Source: Bacteroidota bacterium (GTDB taxonomy: Bacteria; Bacteroidota; Bacteroidia; Bacteroidales; F082). From it: DNA of 37,253 nucleotides. The notes under the pieces are model-generated. The model saw nothing but the letters and a program-made list of their open reading frames with translations, did not search any database and had not been told where the DNA came from. This document shows positions 12,472-20,363 of this stretch, one piece after another; within the stretch, counting starts at the first letter, position 1; every line of letters begins with the position of its first letter. Both the position numbers and the translations under genes were made by a program. The stretch is taken from NCBI GenBank assembly GCA_003650425.1, contig QMPP01000006.1:1-37253 (forward strand). The letters are read 5' to 3'.

Positions 12472-13611
12472 TTAACGTTGTGTTACTGTCAGGTAGTTAT
12501 AAACAGGGTTGGCATACAAATGTAAAAACAAATTCCATAATTCATCTTTATTGCCATTCGGTAAATATTGATCAATAGTTGAAAATCGTTTTTTAAATAA
12601 CCCGAGTGTGGAGTCATTATACTGATTGCTATGGATGCTGTTTCCTTCCAATAAATCGTAAGCCAGCCAGTTAACGGGCCATAACTTGTAGTTTTTGTAT
12701 ATTTCTTTATCAATTTGTTGTGCCACCAATGCAAGGTAGGCGTTATTTAGTTTTTTTGCTTTAATACTATCCAGTACATTGTTAAGTGGGATTCCCATGG
12801 CAAAATGTATTCTTCCTTTATGACCTGTGATTCCGCCAATCGTACTTTGCAGGTCTTCTTTTTCCTTTTTAATGTATGTGTTTTGCTTTGATAAGTAAGT
12901 CTCCCGAATTTTCATGATATCGCATGGTTCCCATTCATAGGAAATTGAAACAGGGATAATATCGAGCTTTTTGATGGCTTCGTAATAATTGTCCTTTTGA
13001 TAAAAAGAGAGCATTTTTAGAATACTGATTTCGGTTTTGTCGAATCCGTCTTTGGTTCTGCCCGGCCGCTGTGCCACCCATACGGAGCTATTGCCATTTA
13101 TTATTTCGTTGCTGATGTATTTAGATAGTCGAATAGAGTTAAATAGTAATTCGCGGGGAGAGCCATCCCGAATAACGGTTATCATTTTGTTTACTTTAGC
13201 GGCTTGTTCAAAGAATGGAGAGATGATAAGGTTGTTACCAAAAGTAATTTCGGCCGTTTCAAAGTTCTTATCCATTAAAATAATGTTCAGAATACCCGAG
13301 TCGAGCAGAATGTCCCTGTGGTTACTTAAAATTGTGTGGCCTGTGTCAGTAAAATTTTCAAATCCGCTTGTGCTTAACCCGTCCGACGATCGTGCCAGAA
13401 TACGGTGAATAACCTTGTGCATGAAATGTTGCTGTACATCTTTTACCGTTTTTGAGTTAGCAAAAATTTTCCTGTATTTGTCCTGCTCTCCCGGAAAAAG
13501 AAAATCAAGCACCGATTGAAATTTGCTGTTGGATACAATTTGCTCAATGGCAGGTGCAATTTCATCATCCCTAAATGGCCTGATTGAATCAAAATCCTGT
13601 TCACTCATCAT
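12472..13611 (-). CDS. PlsB/PlsC-like acyltransferase
   Basis: TGHTILSNHRDILLDSGIL (NHRD...D motif), WVAQRPGRTKDG. Start set at ATG 13611; upstream TTG at 13635 lies inside a putative -7 box (TAACTTTG, 13633-13640). Confidence 0.75.
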   Translation of the reverse strand: MMSEQDFDSIRPFRDDEIAPAIEQIVSNSKFQSVLDFLFPGEQDKYRKIFANSKTVKDVQQHFMHKVIHRILARSSDGLSTSGFENFTDTGHTILSNHRDILLDSGILNIILMDKNFETAEITFGNNLIISPFFEQAAKVNKMITVIRDGSPRELLFNSIRLSKYISNEIINGNSSVWVAQRPGRTKDGFDKTEISILKMLSFYQKDNYYEAIKKLDIIPVSISYEWEPCDIMKIRETYLSKQNTYIKKEKEDLQSTIGGITGHKGRIHFAMGIPLNNVLDSIKAKKLNNAYLALVAQQIDKEIYKNYKLWPVNWLAYDLLEGNSIHSNQYNDSTLGLFKKRFSTIDQYLPNGNKDELWNLFLHLYANPVYNYLTVTQR

Positions 13612-13632
13612 TTTATTTCTGTTTTGGTTTAG

Positions 13633-13640
13633 CAAAGTTA
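13633..13640 (-). promoter_or_regulatory. putative -7 element (TAACTTTG) for the divergent acyltransferase
   Basis: Matches TAnnTTTG on the minus strand, 22 nt before ATG 13611. Confidence 0.45.
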
Positions 13641-13662
13641 CCTAAATATTTAAAATATTAGT

Positions 13663-13670
13663 TATTTTTG
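13663..13670 (+). promoter_or_regulatory. putative -7 element (TATTTTTG) for the ACP/dar genes
   Basis: Matches TAnnTTTG, 21 nt before ATG 13691. Confidence 0.5.
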
Positions 13671-13690
13671 CAACCTTAATTCCGATAAAA

Positions 13691-13936
13691 ATGCAAAAAG
13701 AAGATATAATAGAAAGAGTTAACCTATTTTTGGTAGAGGAGTTTGAACTGGAGGAGGAGCAGCTTGTAGCCGAAGCTTTGTTAAAAGATGATTTGGATAT
13801 TGAAAGCCTCGATTTTGTTGATATTGCAGTTATCATCGAAAAAGAGTTTAACTTTCAGATGAAAACCGAAGAGATGGCCAAGTTGAAAACACTCAACGAC
13901 TTTTATAACTATCTTGATCAACAACTGAATAAGTAA
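13691..13936 (+). CDS. acyl carrier protein
   Basis: 82 aa; KDDLDIESLDFVDIAVIIEKEF contains the D-S-L phosphopantetheine attachment context. Confidence 0.92.
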   Translation: MQKEDIIERVNLFLVEEFELEEEQLVAEALLKDDLDIESLDFVDIAVIIEKEFNFQMKTEEMAKLKTLNDFYNYLDQQLNK

Positions 13937-14835
13937 TGGCTACCTGGCAAGGTAAAACGCGAGGTGGTGTAGCCGGATATCTTACCTTTATTTTTATTTT
14001 AAAATATCTTGGGCTAAATTTTGCCTATTTCATTTTACGTTTTGTAGTGGTGTATTTTGTTCTATTTGCTCCGTTGGCACGCAAATCGTTGTGGTTTTAT
14101 TTCCGAAAAATTCATGGTTGGGGATTTTGGAAAAGTTTTATCGGACTTTTTCGTAACTTCTATATTTTTGGGCAAACATTGCTCGATAAGGTAGCTTTAT
14201 TGTCGGGAGTCACAACAAAATTTACTTTTGATTTTGATGGAGAAGAGCATTTACGTAAAATGGCTTTGGAGGGTAACGGGGGTATGCTTATCGGGGCACA
14301 TCTCGGCAACTGGGAAATTGCCGGACAGCTACTCGATCGCCTTGAAACCCGCGTTAATATTGTAATGCTGGATGCCGAACATCAAGCCATTAAAAAATTA
14401 CTCGACGCTGTCATTCAAAAACGGGAGGTCAATATAATTCCGATTAAACCCAATAGCTTCGAACATCTTTTCGCCATCAAAGAAGCTTTGTTTAATAATG
14501 AGCTGGTAGTAATCCATGGCGACAGGTACATTCCCGAAAACAAAACGGTAACTAAATTGTTTATGGGTCGTGAAGCCGATTTCCCACTAGGGCCTTTTCA
14601 GCTGGCAACTAAATACAATAAGCCGGTTACCTTTGTTACTGCCGTGAAGGAGACAAAACGGCATTACCATTTTATGGCCACCTCTCCGAAAGTATATTCC
14701 AACAAGCCGGGGCCACAGCGAAAACAGCAATTAACCCTGATTATGTCTGATTATATTTCCTGGCTCGAAGATAAGGTTGCAAAATATCCCTACCAGTGGT
14801 TTAATTATTATTATTTTTGGAAACTTTTGAAATAA
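13936..14835 (+). CDS. lysophospholipid acyltransferase, LpxL/HtrB-like
   Basis: GAHLGNWEIAGQLL (HX4E motif), VIHGDRYIPENKTV, FPLGPFQLATKYNKPVTFV. Overlaps the ACP stop by one base (taatg). Confidence 0.85.
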   Translation: MATWQGKTRGGVAGYLTFIFILKYLGLNFAYFILRFVVVYFVLFAPLARKSLWFYFRKIHGWGFWKSFIGLFRNFYIFGQTLLDKVALLSGVTTKFTFDFDGEEHLRKMALEGNGGMLIGAHLGNWEIAGQLLDRLETRVNIVMLDAEHQAIKKLLDAVIQKREVNIIPIKPNSFEHLFAIKEALFNNELVVIHGDRYIPENKTVTKLFMGREADFPLGPFQLATKYNKPVTFVTAVKETKRHYHFMATSPKVYSNKPGPQRKQQLTLIMSDYISWLEDKVAKYPYQWFNYYYFWKLLK

Positions 14836-14870
14836 GTTGGACTATTGTACAAAATAGCAGGAGATATTAA

Positions 14871-15122
14871 GCTCTACCCCGGGGTTTAGCCCGGGATAGA
14901 TGGGGCTTTAACCTGAGCTCTGCCCCGGGCTAAACCCCGGGATAGAAAGGGTTTAGCTTGAGTTTTACCCCGGGCTAACCCCCTAGGTAGAAAGGGTTAA
15001 CCTGAGCTCTGCTCCGGGCTAAACCCCGGGGTAGAAAGGATTTAGCTTGAGTTTTACCACGGGCTAAACCCCTATGTAGAAAGGTTTAGCTTGAGTTTTA
15101 CCCCGGGCTAAACCCCGGGGTA
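14871..15122. repeat. tandem/palindromic repeat array, six ~44-45 bp units, first core inverted
   Basis: Units at 14871, 14915, 14960, 15004, 15049 and 15093 share ccccgggctaaaccccgggg-type cores; 14875-14898 is the reverse complement of 15099-15122 with one mismatch in 24. Confidence 0.95.
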
Positions 15123-15169
15123 TAATAGACTTCGTGATGATGTAATAATTGTATATTAATAAAAAGTGG

Positions 15170-16240
15170 ATGAAAGATTACGGAAACGATACTAAATCAG
15201 CGTTGCTGGCTAAGTTTGATGCGCAAAAAATCACTTTTGGTCCCATTATGTTTCAAGCGGCAAAAGCCCTTCGCGATTTGGGAATCCTGGAATATCTGAT
15301 GAAAACCCGTCGGAAAGGAGCTGCCATTGAAGAGGTTGCCGAGGCACTTGACCTGTCGGTTTATGGAGTAAAGGTGTTGCTTGAAGCTGCCATTAGCCTT
15401 GAAATGGTGTTGGTGCGTGAGGATAGATTTTTTATAACTAAAACCGGTTATTTTTTATTGAGCGATAAGCTTACCCGTGTTAATATGGATTTTACACACG
15501 ATGTTAATTATCTTGGCATGTTTCATCTGGAGGAGGCCATAAAAAATGGTAAACCTGAGGGGTTGAAAGTCTTTGGTGAGTGGGACACGGTTTATGAAGC
15601 ACTGTCGGAGTTGCCGGAGAAAGTACGAGAGAGTTGGTTTGGTTTCGATCACTACTATTCCGATGTGGCTTTTCCCGAAGTGCTGCCTGTGATTTTTAAC
15701 GAAGGAGTTAAGAAGATGATGGATGTGGGTGGAAATACTGGTAAATTTGCTATCGAGTGTGCTAAATTTTCTGATGATGTTGAGGTTACTATCCTTGACT
15801 TGCCCGGTCAGCTTAAGGATGCCGAAAAAAATATTGTTGCCAATGGTTTTGAACAGCGGGTGAATTTATTTCCTATTAATTTGCTTGATGCTGAAGCCCC
15901 ATTCCCAAAGGGTCACGATGCCATTTGGATGAGCCAGTTTTTGGATTGTTTTTCGCAAGAGCAGATACTCACTTTGCTAAAACGAGCCAACGATGCACTA
16001 GATAAAGAAGGTTCGGTTTATATTTTGGAAACCTATTGGGATAAGCAGGCTTTTGAAGCATCTACGTACAGTTTGCATGCTACAACGCTCTACTTTACTG
16101 CTATTGCTAACGGAAACAGTCAGATGTATCATTCTGACGATATGCGCAAACTGGTTGAAAAATCAGGGATGGTGATTGAAAAGGAATTTGAAAACATTGG
16201 CGTAAGCCACACCTTGTTTAAATGCAGGAAGAAGAAATAG
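15170..16240 (+). CDS. SAM-dependent methyltransferase (O-methyltransferase family 2-like, with winged-helix N-domain)
   Basis: MMDVGGNTGKFAIECAKF SAM motif I, VTILDLPGQL, WMSQFLDCFS; N-terminal wHTH-like segment. ATG 15170 preferred over TTG 15149. Confidence 0.87.
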   Translation: MKDYGNDTKSALLAKFDAQKITFGPIMFQAAKALRDLGILEYLMKTRRKGAAIEEVAEALDLSVYGVKVLLEAAISLEMVLVREDRFFITKTGYFLLSDKLTRVNMDFTHDVNYLGMFHLEEAIKNGKPEGLKVFGEWDTVYEALSELPEKVRESWFGFDHYYSDVAFPEVLPVIFNEGVKKMMDVGGNTGKFAIECAKFSDDVEVTILDLPGQLKDAEKNIVANGFEQRVNLFPINLLDAEAPFPKGHDAIWMSQFLDCFSQEQILTLLKRANDALDKEGSVYILETYWDKQAFEASTYSLHATTLYFTAIANGNSQMYHSDDMRKLVEKSGMVIEKEFENIGVSHTLFKCRKKK

Positions 16241-16364
16241 ATTGCAACGTAAAAAATTAAGTAGATTTAAAATTCCTGCCCGCCGGTTTTTTGAACAAAG
16301 GATGACAGGCAGGCATGACAAAACAAAAGGTAGGTAAATCAAATAATAAGAAAAGTATAAACAC

Positions 16365-17291
16365 ATGAAAAAGATTCTTGTGGTTACCTATTCCCAATCG
16401 GGACAGCTTAACGAAATTGTTGACAATGTTGTAAAAACGTTTAATAGCGATGTTCAGATAGTGATTGAACACCTGCAACCCGACCCCCTATTCCCATTTC
16501 CATGGACTAACATCAGCTTTTGGGATGCCATGCCTGACGCCGTAAGTTTAATACCCCATAAACTCAAACCCTTCGCTTTTAATCCGGACGAGGATTTTGA
16601 TTTAATCATGCTGGGGTTTCCCGTGTGGTTTTTATCACCGGCCATTCCCATGACCTCCTTCCTGAAATCGCCGGAGGCAGCCAAAGTGATGAAAAACAAA
16701 CCCGTTGTTACTGTCATTGGTGCCCGCAATATGTGGGTCAATGCGCAAGAGGATATTAAAAAGATGATTGCTAATAATGGTGGGCGGTTGGTGGGAAACA
16801 TCGCGTTGCGCGACAAGGCCAACAACCTCTCCAGTGTGGTTACCATTATTTATTGGATGATGACGGCCAAAAAAGAGAAACTTTGGGGAATCTTCCCAAA
16901 ACCGGGTATTTCCGATGAAGACATCGCCGCTGCCGCCCGCTTTGGAAAGCCCATTTCCGAATCGTTAACAACGGGCGAGTTTACTGAGTTGCAGCAGAAC
17001 CTGCAATCGCTTGGCTCCATTGACTTGATTCCCAACGTTGTTTTTATGGAGTTGAGGGGTAAAAAGTTTTTTTATAAATGGGCTAAGTTTATTCGGAAAA
17101 AAGGAGAGCATGGTAACCCCAATAGGGTTGGCCGGCTGAAAATGTTTAAATGGTATCTGCTTATTGCTATTTTTGTCGCTTCGCCCATTGCCATTTTGCT
17201 GTTCTATCTGTTTTTACCTTTGACTTGGTGGAACTTTAGAAACAAACTGGCCTATTTTAAGGGGGTTGATTTAAATGATGAACTAATTTAA
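16365..17291 (+). CDS. darA: DarA-like dialkylresorcinol biosynthesis protein (flavodoxin-like fold, C-terminal TM segment)
   Basis: TYSQSGQLNEIVDNVV flavin-binding loop, LIMLGFPVWFLSPAIPM, C-terminal hydrophobic WYLLIAIFVASPIAILLFYLFL; directly upstream of a KAS III-like gene, as in Bacteroidota dar pairs. Confidence 0.8.
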   Translation: MKKILVVTYSQSGQLNEIVDNVVKTFNSDVQIVIEHLQPDPLFPFPWTNISFWDAMPDAVSLIPHKLKPFAFNPDEDFDLIMLGFPVWFLSPAIPMTSFLKSPEAAKVMKNKPVVTVIGARNMWVNAQEDIKKMIANNGGRLVGNIALRDKANNLSSVVTIIYWMMTAKKEKLWGIFPKPGISDEDIAAAARFGKPISESLTTGEFTELQQNLQSLGSIDLIPNVVFMELRGKKFFYKWAKFIRKKGEHGNPNRVGRLKMFKWYLLIAIFVASPIAILLFYLFLPLTWWNFRNKLAYFKGVDLNDELI

Positions 17292-17293
17292 AT

Positions 17294-18430
17294 ATGAATA
17301 ACGTTTACATAACACGCATCGAAAAATTTATGCCCAACGAACCCGTCTCCAACGATGAGATGGAAAGTATTTTGGGATTGATTGATGAGAAGGAGTCAAA
17401 GTCGAGGGCGCTGATTCTGAGAAGTAACGGTATCAAAAACAGATATTATGCACTAGACAAAGAGGGGAAGGTTACCCACACCAATGCACGGCTTACTGCC
17501 GAGTCAATAAAAAAACTCTTTGACGATAAAATTCAATACGATGACATCGATTTGTTGACTGCCGGCACCTCTTCACCCGATGTAATACAGCCCGCTCACG
17601 CATTAATGGTGGCCGGTGAACTGGGAGGCAAACCCATCGAAGCGGTATCGGCTCAGGGCACTTGCAACGCGGGCATGTTGTCGATGAAATATGCTTACCT
17701 GGCTTTAAAGTCGGGTGATAAGGAACGGGCAGTTGTCGCTGGTTCCGAAGCCTTTTCCTCCTGGATGAAAGCCGAAAATTACGAAGCAGAAATCGACAGG
17801 AGGAAAGAAGTTGAAGAGAATCCATACATTGCCTTTGAAAAAGATTTTCTTAGATGGATGCTGAGTGATGGTGCTGCTGCCATGATGATGCAAACAAAGC
17901 CTGAAGAAGGAAAGCCTGCCTTAAAAGTTGAGTGGATTGATGTGCTTACCTACGCGGTAGAGTTGGAAACCTGTATGTATGCCGGATGTGAGAAAGAGAA
18001 AGATGGCAGCATGAAAGGATGGCGCGAGATGACACCACGGGAGCAGCAGGTAAAATCGGTATTTTCTTTAAAGCAAGATGCACGAATATTGCAAAAGCAT
18101 ATAGTCGAAAAAGGGGTGGAGCACCTTAAAATGGTTGTGGATAAGTACAACCTCGACCTCGATAAAGTGGACTACTTTTTACCTCATATTTCATCTATGT
18201 TTTTCAAAAAACCATTGAGTCAGGGATTTAAAGATGCCGGGCTTAAGGTTGACGATAAAAAATGGTTTTTAAACCTTCCCAAAGTAGGAAACGTTGGCGC
18301 GGCTTCTGTTATGCTGATGCTGGAAGAGCTTTTCAATTCCGGAAAACTTAAAAAGGGAAACCGGATTATGCTGATGGTTCCCGAAAGTGCCAGGTTTTCG
18401 TACGCGTTCGCGATGTTAACGGTGGTGTAA
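17294..18430 (+). CDS. darB: DarB-like 3-oxoacyl-ACP synthase III family ketosynthase
   Basis: KAS III residues all present: Cys in AQGTCNAG, His in YFLPHISSMFF, Asn in VGNVGAASV; starts 3 nt after darA. Confidence 0.85.
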   Translation: MNNVYITRIEKFMPNEPVSNDEMESILGLIDEKESKSRALILRSNGIKNRYYALDKEGKVTHTNARLTAESIKKLFDDKIQYDDIDLLTAGTSSPDVIQPAHALMVAGELGGKPIEAVSAQGTCNAGMLSMKYAYLALKSGDKERAVVAGSEAFSSWMKAENYEAEIDRRKEVEENPYIAFEKDFLRWMLSDGAAAMMMQTKPEEGKPALKVEWIDVLTYAVELETCMYAGCEKEKDGSMKGWREMTPREQQVKSVFSLKQDARILQKHIVEKGVEHLKMVVDKYNLDLDKVDYFLPHISSMFFKKPLSQGFKDAGLKVDDKKWFLNLPKVGNVGAASVMLMLEELFNSGKLKKGNRIMLMVPESARFSYAFAMLTVV

Positions 18431-18458: not shown

Positions 18459-20363
18459 ATGAATTACCTTTCCATAAAAGAGCTAACGAAAAGCTATGGC
18501 GAAAAAATCCTGTTTGAGAATATCAGTCTGGGTTTGCACAAGGGCGAAAAAACAGCCCTGATTGCCAACAACGGAACGGGAAAATCGACTCTGCTGAAAA
18601 TTATTGCAGGAAAAGAGGATGCCGATGGGGGAGAGGTGGTGCTGCGAAATGGTATCAAACTGGGCTACTTGCCACAGCAGCCTCTTTTTGACGAATCTTT
18701 AACCATCAACGAGCTTATCACGGGATCGCATTCTGAGGTGTTGGCGGTTATTAAAGCTTACGGGCAGGCTTTAGATTACCAGGCGGTTAATCACAACAAA
18801 GAGGCTCAACAACGGGTTGAAAAAGCGACTGAGAACATGGATTTGTGGCAGGCATGGGATTACGAACGCCGGCTTAAACAGGTGCTTACCAAGTTTTCGA
18901 TTACCCGTCTCGACCAAAAAGTATCCACCCTCTCCGGAGGGCAAAAAAAGCGACTGGCATTGGCATTGGTGTTGTTGGATGAGCCCGAAATTTTGCTGCT
19001 TGATGAGCCTACCAATCATCTGGATATCGATATGATTGAGTGGTTGGAGAAATATTTGCAACAAAGCAATATCACCCTTTTTATGGTAACCCACGATCGT
19101 TATTTTCTCGACAGGGTTTGCAACCATATTGTTGAAATGACTGATGGTACCATTTATAATCACCAGGGTAATTACAGTTATTTTTTACAAAAAAAGGCCG
19201 AGCGCGAAGAGGTTCAAAGCGTGGAAATTGACAAGGCTAAAAAACTGATGAAAAAGGAACTGGACTGGATGCGCCGCCAACCCAAAGCTCGAACCCATAA
19301 ATCGAAGTCGCGTATTGATGCTTTTTATGATATTAAAAAGAAGGCGTCTTCTGGTAAGCGGGAAGAGGAGTTGCTGCTTGATTCGGTGAATCGCCGCATG
19401 GGCGGGAAAATTTTAGAGGTAAAAGGGCTGGCAAAGCATTACGGTGATATCGCCATCATTAACAATTTTGAATACACCTTCAAAAAGGGGGAACGTATTG
19501 GAATTATCGGGAAAAACGGCACGGGAAAATCTACTTTCCTAAACCTCCTTGCAGGGACGGAAACGCCTGACACAGGCACGGTTGTGATGGGTGACACCAT
19601 CGTTCAAGGGTATTACAAGCAGGATGGATTGCCACACATAAGAGACGACCAAAAGGTAATTGATGTGGTAAAAGAAATTGCCGAAGTTATCGAAACCTCC
19701 AAGGGCAACAGCATGACGGCATCGCAGTTTCTGCAGTATTTTATGTTCCCTCCCGAGATGCAGCACGCGTTGGTTGCTAACCTGAGTGGTGGCGAAAAGC
19801 GGAGGCTTTATCTGCTAACGGTTCTGATTAAAAATCCCAATTTTTTAATTCTTGACGAGCCCACCAACGACCTTGACCTGCTGACGTTGTTTAAGCTGGA
19901 GGAATTTCTGATGAATTTTAAAGGTTGTTTGCTGTTGGTTTCGCACGATCGTTATTTTTTGGATAAACTGAGCGATCATCTTTTTATTTTTAAAGGTGGT
20001 GGTGAGGTAAAAGATTTTTATGGCCCCTATAAAGCGTATCGTCAGCAATTATTGGAGGAAGAGAAAGTACGAAAGGAGTTAAAACAGGCTGAAAAGCGGG
20101 AGCAGTCAGCCGGTGTACCCGAAAAAAAACCGGTTAAAACCAAGCTTAGTTACAAAGAACAAAAAGAGTTTGAGCAACTTGAAAAAGAGATTGAAATACT
20201 GGAGCAACAAAAGACCGGGCTGGAAAACAAGTTAAATTCAGGGATCAGCGATTTTGAAAAGCTTCAAAAGCTCTCGAAAGAGATAAAAATAATCATCGAA
20301 TCGATTGATGAAAAAACCATGAGATGGATGGAGCTGGAGGAGCTGCACGACCGGTTTTCATAA
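18459..20363 (+). CDS. ABC-F family ATPase, Uup-like
   Basis: Two Walker A motifs (NNGTGKST, KNGTGKST), two signature motifs (LSGGQ, LSGGE), DEPTNHLDI / DEPTNDLDL, C-terminal coiled coil. Confidence 0.95.
   Translation: MNYLSIKELTKSYGEKILFENISLGLHKGEKTALIANNGTGKSTLLKIIAGKEDADGGEVVLRNGIKLGYLPQQPLFDESLTINELITGSHSEVLAVIKAYGQALDYQAVNHNKEAQQRVEKATENMDLWQAWDYERRLKQVLTKFSITRLDQKVSTLSGGQKKRLALALVLLDEPEILLLDEPTNHLDIDMIEWLEKYLQQSNITLFMVTHDRYFLDRVCNHIVEMTDGTIYNHQGNYSYFLQKKAEREEVQSVEIDKAKKLMKKELDWMRRQPKARTHKSKSRIDAFYDIKKKASSGKREEELLLDSVNRRMGGKILEVKGLAKHYGDIAIINNFEYTFKKGERIGIIGKNGTGKSTFLNLLAGTETPDTGTVVMGDTIVQGYYKQDGLPHIRDDQKVIDVVKEIAEVIETSKGNSMTASQFLQYFMFPPEMQHALVANLSGGEKRRLYLLTVLIKNPNFLILDEPTNDLDLLTLFKLEEFLMNFKGCLLLVSHDRYFLDKLSDHLFIFKGGGEVKDFYGPYKAYRQQLLEEEKVRKELKQAEKREQSAGVPEKKPVKTKLSYKEQKEFEQLEKEIEILEQQKTGLENKLNSGISDFEKLQKLSKEIKIIIESIDEKTMRWMELEELHDRFS

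Follow-up and report, generated by a model that had tools for sequence, protein, structure and literature searches.

A DarA-DarB locus in a Bacteroidales genome as probable part of a dispersed flexirubin-type pathway

Gene content of the locus

The window, i.e., the whole stretch of DNA analysed (37,253 nucleotides), is the entire contig C6 of a Bacteroidales genome (G000; assembly of 3.1 Mb in 311 contigs, 92 % complete), and linkage could be followed as far as the contig ends. All six genes of the region 12472-18430 are intact open reading frames (Table 1), in agreement with a preliminary description of this DNA, which had called them acyltransferase, ACP, LpxL-like acyltransferase, methyltransferase, DarA and DarB. 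The flanks given there (tsaD-side genes, ABC-F/aroK) were likewise recovered by profile search as TsaD, an ABC-F ATPase and shikimate kinase. The linkage of the ABC-F gene to DarA-DarB seen in the window recurs in two congeners, and congener G011 has the gene without them; the gene is a mere neighbour outside the pathway.

Table 1. Features of the DarA-DarB region and its immediate surroundings (positions in the window)
Feature	Position	Strand	Remarks
GPAT/PlsC-like acyltransferase	12472..13635	-	divergent; predicted model matches GPAT1/PlsC
Acyl carrier protein (ACP)	13691..13936	+	PF00550; orthologue of the ACP in the TAL-KR-KS-ACP-LpxL-FlxJ polyene cluster
LpxL-like acyltransferase, polyene cluster type	13936..14835	+	PF03279
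Palindromic 44/89-bp tandem array	14875..15122		between the genes for the LpxL-like protein and the FlxJ-family methyltransferase
FlxJ-family methyltransferase	15149..16240	+	probable methylation of the polyene's aryl head; NF053543 match just below cut-off, supported by relatives
Junction of two cassettes unlinked in congener G025	16240..16364		
DarA, dialkylresorcinol condensing/aromatising protein	16365..17291	+	flavodoxin-like domain and C-terminal helix
DarB ketosynthase	17294..18430	+	Cys124/His298/Asn333 present
ABC-F ATPase	18459..20363	+	neighbour, not a pathway gene

The product of the divergent gene matches no Pfam or NCBIfam profile; its predicted structure (pLDDT 85.7) matches GPAT1 (E=6.6e-8) and PlsC (2e-4), and it has an invariant NHRDIxLD motif. 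Since congeners show TGA in the extension, translation probably begins at an ATG near 13608, about 8 codons downstream of the called TTG. Orthologues of this acyltransferase adjoin TAL in relatives. Whether it belongs to the pathway is uncertain, as an orthologue also occurs in congener G011, which lacks flexirubin genes.

The tandem array, with the motif TACCCCGGGCTAAACCCCGGGGTAGAAAGGGTTTAGCTTGAGTTT, possibly represents a terminator or a rearrangement site. The same motif lies in the equivalent LpxL-FlxJ gap of congener G025 (L109 7875-8024), and a zero-mismatch search of the other loci fetched by then found it nowhere outside the window and G025.

DarA and DarB

The 17294 product falls within the DarB family, scoring 576 bits against resorcinol_DarB (NF053539, cut-off 550) and 558 bits against StlD/DarB (NF005293, cut-off 450). 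It aligns end-to-end with StlD (PDB 5gk0; E=2.6e-113), and its catalytic residues Cys124, His298 and Asn333 coincide with those of StlD, so that the intact Cys/His/Asn of the preliminary description is borne out. A search of the same genome for a second DarB copy found none.

In case of DarA, profile searches gave weak flavodoxin matches only, and no curated model in the libraries fits. The AlphaFold model (pLDDT 88.7) predicts a flavodoxin-like domain followed by a long C-terminal helix, and flavodoxins are among its significant Foldseek matches; G-protein-coupled receptors, also high in the list, were disregarded (TM-scores of about 0.3 or less, rmsd near 30 A). In 24/24 loci examined the corresponding gene lies immediately 5' of DarB (34-81 % identity). 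By this adjacency, the identity and the predicted fold, the product is assigned as DarA.

A single scan of genome contigs with DarB yielded three loci, and a search of plasmids for an annotated DarA returned only Streptomyces homologues labelled hypothetical. On Streptomyces plasmid NZ_CP108315 (L168), ACP-DarB-DarA homologues are accompanied by a FAD monooxygenase, FabF and a P450, likely a different dialkylresorcinol-type cluster. On the Phocaeicola salanitronis plasmid pBACSA01 (L169), a TetR regulator adjoins a ketosynthase of StlD/DarB type (44 % identity), without an annotated DarA, and plasmids of gut Bacteroides contain matches similar to this ketosynthase.

Pathway genes elsewhere in the genome

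The locus had been described as lacking polyene machinery. A search of the genome family by family, in stretches, did find such genes on five other contigs: (i) KS-KR-FlxA on C3, the flexirubin tyrosine ammonia-lyase (TAL) FlxA scoring 828 bits (cut-off 700), (ii) a FabZ-like dehydratase, DarG (NF053545, 178 bits, cut-off 170), DarH (NF053550, 466 bits, cut-off 300), an ABC ATPase and an ABC-2 permease on C55, (iii) a KS-like protein, a polysaccharide deacetylase and LolA on C75, (iv) a thioesterase, an ACP and a KS on C85, as well as (v) a thioesterase, a KS and a small conserved protein on C95. The polyene functions KS, KR, DH, ACP and TE are thus all represented, spread over C3, C55, C75, C85 and C95. 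Two further aromatic lyases (C195 and C7) were set aside as HutH-type.

On C3, C6, C75, C85 and C95 the cassettes are bounded on both sides by unrelated genes inside the contig, e.g., RsgA, PrsW and an iron-sulfur protein on C95 or ribulose-phosphate epimerase and a LuxR/TPR regulator on C85; dispersal is therefore more than an effect of contig ends. The permease on C55 runs into the contig end. The LuxR-type regulator with TPR repeats lies directly 3' of the C85 ACP-KS cassette (L019 10146-11720) and could control the dispersed pathway.

Of the genes that the preliminary description had proposed to look for, KS, KR, DH and TAL are thus present, but no exporter linked to pathway genes was found. 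The genome contains three pairs of RND/MMPL and LolA-like genes (C60, C33, C130), considered as candidate pigment exporters, none of which adjoins the pathway genes found. Similarly, none of 12 AMP-binding matches, searched for a 4-coumarate ligase, lies beside them.

Distribution and clustering in related genomes

Within a sample of 119 genomes of the family, DarB occurs in 30, and FlxA and FlxJ in 59 each; contig ends truncate FlxA in three of its genomes. FlxA accompanies DarB in all 30 DarB genomes (truncated at a contig end in two), and DarB without FlxA was not encountered; ignoring relatedness, the chance of this nesting is 5e-12. FlxA and FlxJ occur together in 56 genomes, out of 59 for either gene, and 27 of these 56 lack DarB; the ACP and LpxL-like genes are present wherever such DarB-less loci were read. 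Single genera show the pattern as well; among the genomes listed for genus g3, all three genes occur only in G083. Three genomes (G001, G021, G092; loci L112, L113, L114) have FlxJ and other polyene genes, and FlxA was not found in them. In G021 and G092, KR-KS-ACP-LpxL-FlxJ is intact with no TAL ahead of KR, which suggests use of another starter unit.

Typical DarB-positive relatives possess two clusters, one with the order acyltransferase-TAL-KR-KS-ACP-LpxL-FlxJ, often extended by polysaccharide deacetylase and LolA, and another with DarA-DarB-DH-DarG-DarH-ABC-TE-KS-small protein-ACP-KS-KS'. In DarB-less relatives (genus g14, G005) there is a single cluster of TAL-KR-KS, ACP, LpxL and FlxJ plus the later KS set. 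DarH was found only alongside DarA-DarB in the relatives' loci examined. The locus comparison that had been recommended for this DNA thus places DarA-DarB and ACP-LpxL-FlxJ in different clusters.

The ACP, LpxL-like protein and FlxJ of the window are 52-74 % identical to their counterparts in the TAL-KR-KS cluster of DarB-positive genomes. The methyltransferase matches the FlxJ family (NF053543) over its full length with 526 bits, just below the cut-off of 560; it is 64-74 % identical to FlxJ of DarB-positive relatives and orthologous by position. Because orthologues of all three adjoin TAL-KR-KS even in DarB-less relatives, the genes at 13691-16240 are assigned by orthology to the polyene half of the pathway.

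Two cassettes and their maintenance

In congener G025, the arrangement TsaD-h1-acyltransferase/ACP-LpxL-FlxJ spans contigs C192 and C280, which overlap exactly over 151 bp, and is followed by unrelated genes, while DarA-DarB-ABC-F is located on C46 in a different setting. Over the stretches covered by their contigs, congeners G038 and G048 are consistent with this arrangement. The two pieces join at 16240-16340 of the window, with about 100 bp lacking a counterpart in G025. As G025 has the pieces on separate contigs, gene order indicates that the supposedly compact locus is two cassettes side by side rather than one locus.

Comparison of the window genome with G025 covered the dispersed genes outside C75, C85 and C95 and yielded pN/pS values of 0.07-0.15, with 0.23-0.25 for the dehydratase and the ABC ATPase. 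Since this range (0.07-0.25) compares with 0.11 in TsaD, the genes so compared are under purifying selection and maintained. A tree of TAL, KR and KS, rooted on DarB-less lineages, places the window's genus beside all other DarB-positive lineages. Because outgroup and sister group both have clustered genes, break-up of the cluster within the window's genus is the simpler reading of this one tree.

Proposed pathway and alternative interpretations

Flexirubin-type compounds are known yellow-orange bacterial pigments. The locus very probably forms part of a complete-looking but dispersed pathway for such a pigment, i.e., an aryl polyene-dialkylresorcinol ester. Counting against this reading, neither a 4-coumarate ligase nor an RND exporter could be assigned. 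Which genes are present, the families they belong to, their linkage and their co-occurrence were observed; from these, we infer the enzymatic steps in this organism, the enzyme forming the ester and the end product as follows. DarB and DarA would condense two fatty-acid-derived units to a 2,5-dialkylresorcinol, while FlxA would convert tyrosine to 4-coumarate, to be extended to an aryl polyene by the KS, KR, DH and ACP enzymes. The cassette upstream of DarA would serve the polyene half, with the ACP as carrier, the LpxL-like protein in acyl transfer and FlxJ in methylation, probably of the aryl head group, a role also proposed for ApeB of E. coli (PMC8253772). Formation of the ester bond between polyene and resorcinol may be attributed to DarH, a BtrH-type acyltransferase. 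The LpxL-like protein is a less likely candidate than DarH for this step, since it is kept also without DarB. Delivery of the product to the outer membrane may fall to the ABC exporter (C55) and LolA (C75).

The preliminary description had put first a minimal pathway to an acylated and/or O-methylated dialkylresorcinol. In a self-contained form of it, DarB/DarA would turn ACP-loaded acyl chains into a dialkylresorcinol, to which the methyltransferase adds an O-methyl group and/or the LpxL-like protein an acyl group. Such a pathway would agree with the adjacency of the genes on one strand of the window and with known stand-alone ACP-DarB-DarA loci, e.g., on Streptomyces plasmids. It is nevertheless highly improbable, given that the supposed tailoring genes and the ACP accompany TAL-KR-KS in relatives, DarB-less ones included, that they lie on a different contig from DarA-DarB in G025, and that polyene genes are present in the same genome. 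The other possibility considered at that time, one half of a split pigment cluster, is upheld by the complementary flexirubin genes elsewhere in this genome. A complete standard cluster elsewhere, which had been named as an outcome that would overturn the minimal pathway, exists in spirit only: the complementary genes are there, but as dispersed cassettes, and DarB is single-copy.

The adjacency itself might be an artefact, a false join of the ACP-LpxL-methyltransferase piece to DarA-DarB during assembly. The pieces are unlinked in G025, homology to that genome ends in the intergenic gap from both sides, and their G+C contents differ slightly (0.398 and 0.435). However, a search of the same genome with the junction sequence found no good repeat, only 50-bp matches of about 77 %, which leaves no repeat that could have misled the assembly, and the breakpoints are intergenic. 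A chimaera at 16240-16340 is possible but not favoured, and we consider it quite improbable.

Dispersal could also have functional consequences. Mixed use of the genes, with formation of a flexirubin-type pigment and of free dialkylresorcinol as signal or antioxidant under regulation of DarA/DarB apart from the polyene genes, would be in line with the separation of DarA-DarB from every pathway gene but the ACP/LpxL/FlxJ piece. Free dialkylresorcinols serve as signals in other bacteria (cited in PMC9606717). Against this, no dedicated regulator adjoins DarA-DarB, the LuxR/TPR gene lying instead by the ACP-KS cassette on C85, and in the family sample DarB never occurs apart from FlxA; mixed use therefore appears improbable. 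A broader proposal, that a once-clustered flexirubin pathway was split in the window's genus into at least six separately placed mini-operons, all under purifying selection, and that their dispersal is functional, e.g., by separate expression of DarA/DarB to yield free resorcinol beside the pigment, is conceivable but rather doubtful.

Comparison with known systems

The dispersed flexirubin-type pathway proposed here resembles that of Chitinophaga pinensis (flxA-flxY), where darA/darB are located apart from the flx genes and yield 2,5-dialkylresorcinol upon heterologous expression (PMC3992019). Shared elements are the FlxA TAL, KS/KR/DH/ACP, acyltransferase, polysaccharide deacetylase, LolA and DarA/DarB. 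In contrast to C. pinensis, the polyene genes are themselves fragmented here (C3, C6, C75, C85, C95), and the ligase FlxY and an RND exporter were not assigned.

The arcuflavin genes of Azoarcus sp. BH72 offer a precedent for unlinked loci contributing to one aryl polyene-dialkylresorcinol pigment: two unlinked arc loci coexist with a dar locus, and disruption of either polyene locus abolishes pigmentation (PMC3949708). The dar locus there also comprises BtrH-like and ABC genes. Azoarcus differs in its starter, 3-/4-hydroxybenzoate (XanB2 type), as compared to the FlxA TAL found here, and in the lower number of sites (two polyene loci and the dar genes versus at least six places).

The aryl polyene cluster of Escherichia coli CFT073 has methyltransferase, acyltransferase, ACP, KS, KR, DH, TE and LolA-like functions in common with the present genome, but it is one contiguous cluster without dialkylresorcinol part and TAL (PMC8253772). 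Head-group methylation was proposed for its ApeB and is also mentioned for flexirubins in the same work. The stand-alone locus of Streptomyces plasmid NZ_CP108315 is similar in that an ACP adjoins DarB/DarA homologues, whereas the window ACP goes with TAL-KR-KS genes in relatives and its genome has polyene genes. A literature search for dispersed flexirubin genes returned nothing further.

Implications

We regard the locus as a fragment of a scattered known pathway and not as a new minimal one; the chemistry is ordinary and the evolutionary interest modest. Splitting of dialkylresorcinol and polyene loci is already published for Chitinophaga and Azoarcus; what is new is limited to how widely the genes are scattered (at least six places) while still under purifying selection. 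For genome mining based on clusters the case is a warning, as a fragment of a dispersed pathway can pass for a new compact one. Since DarB is nested within FlxA in the family, and FlxJ, ACP and LpxL-like genes persist where DarB is absent, the accessory genes can tentatively be divided into those acting on the polyene and those (DarG, DarH, ABC) acting on the resorcinol or on its joining to the polyene. The genome also provides a clean natural case of a biosynthetic cluster dismantled while its genes stay selected, with congeners and clustered relatives for comparison.
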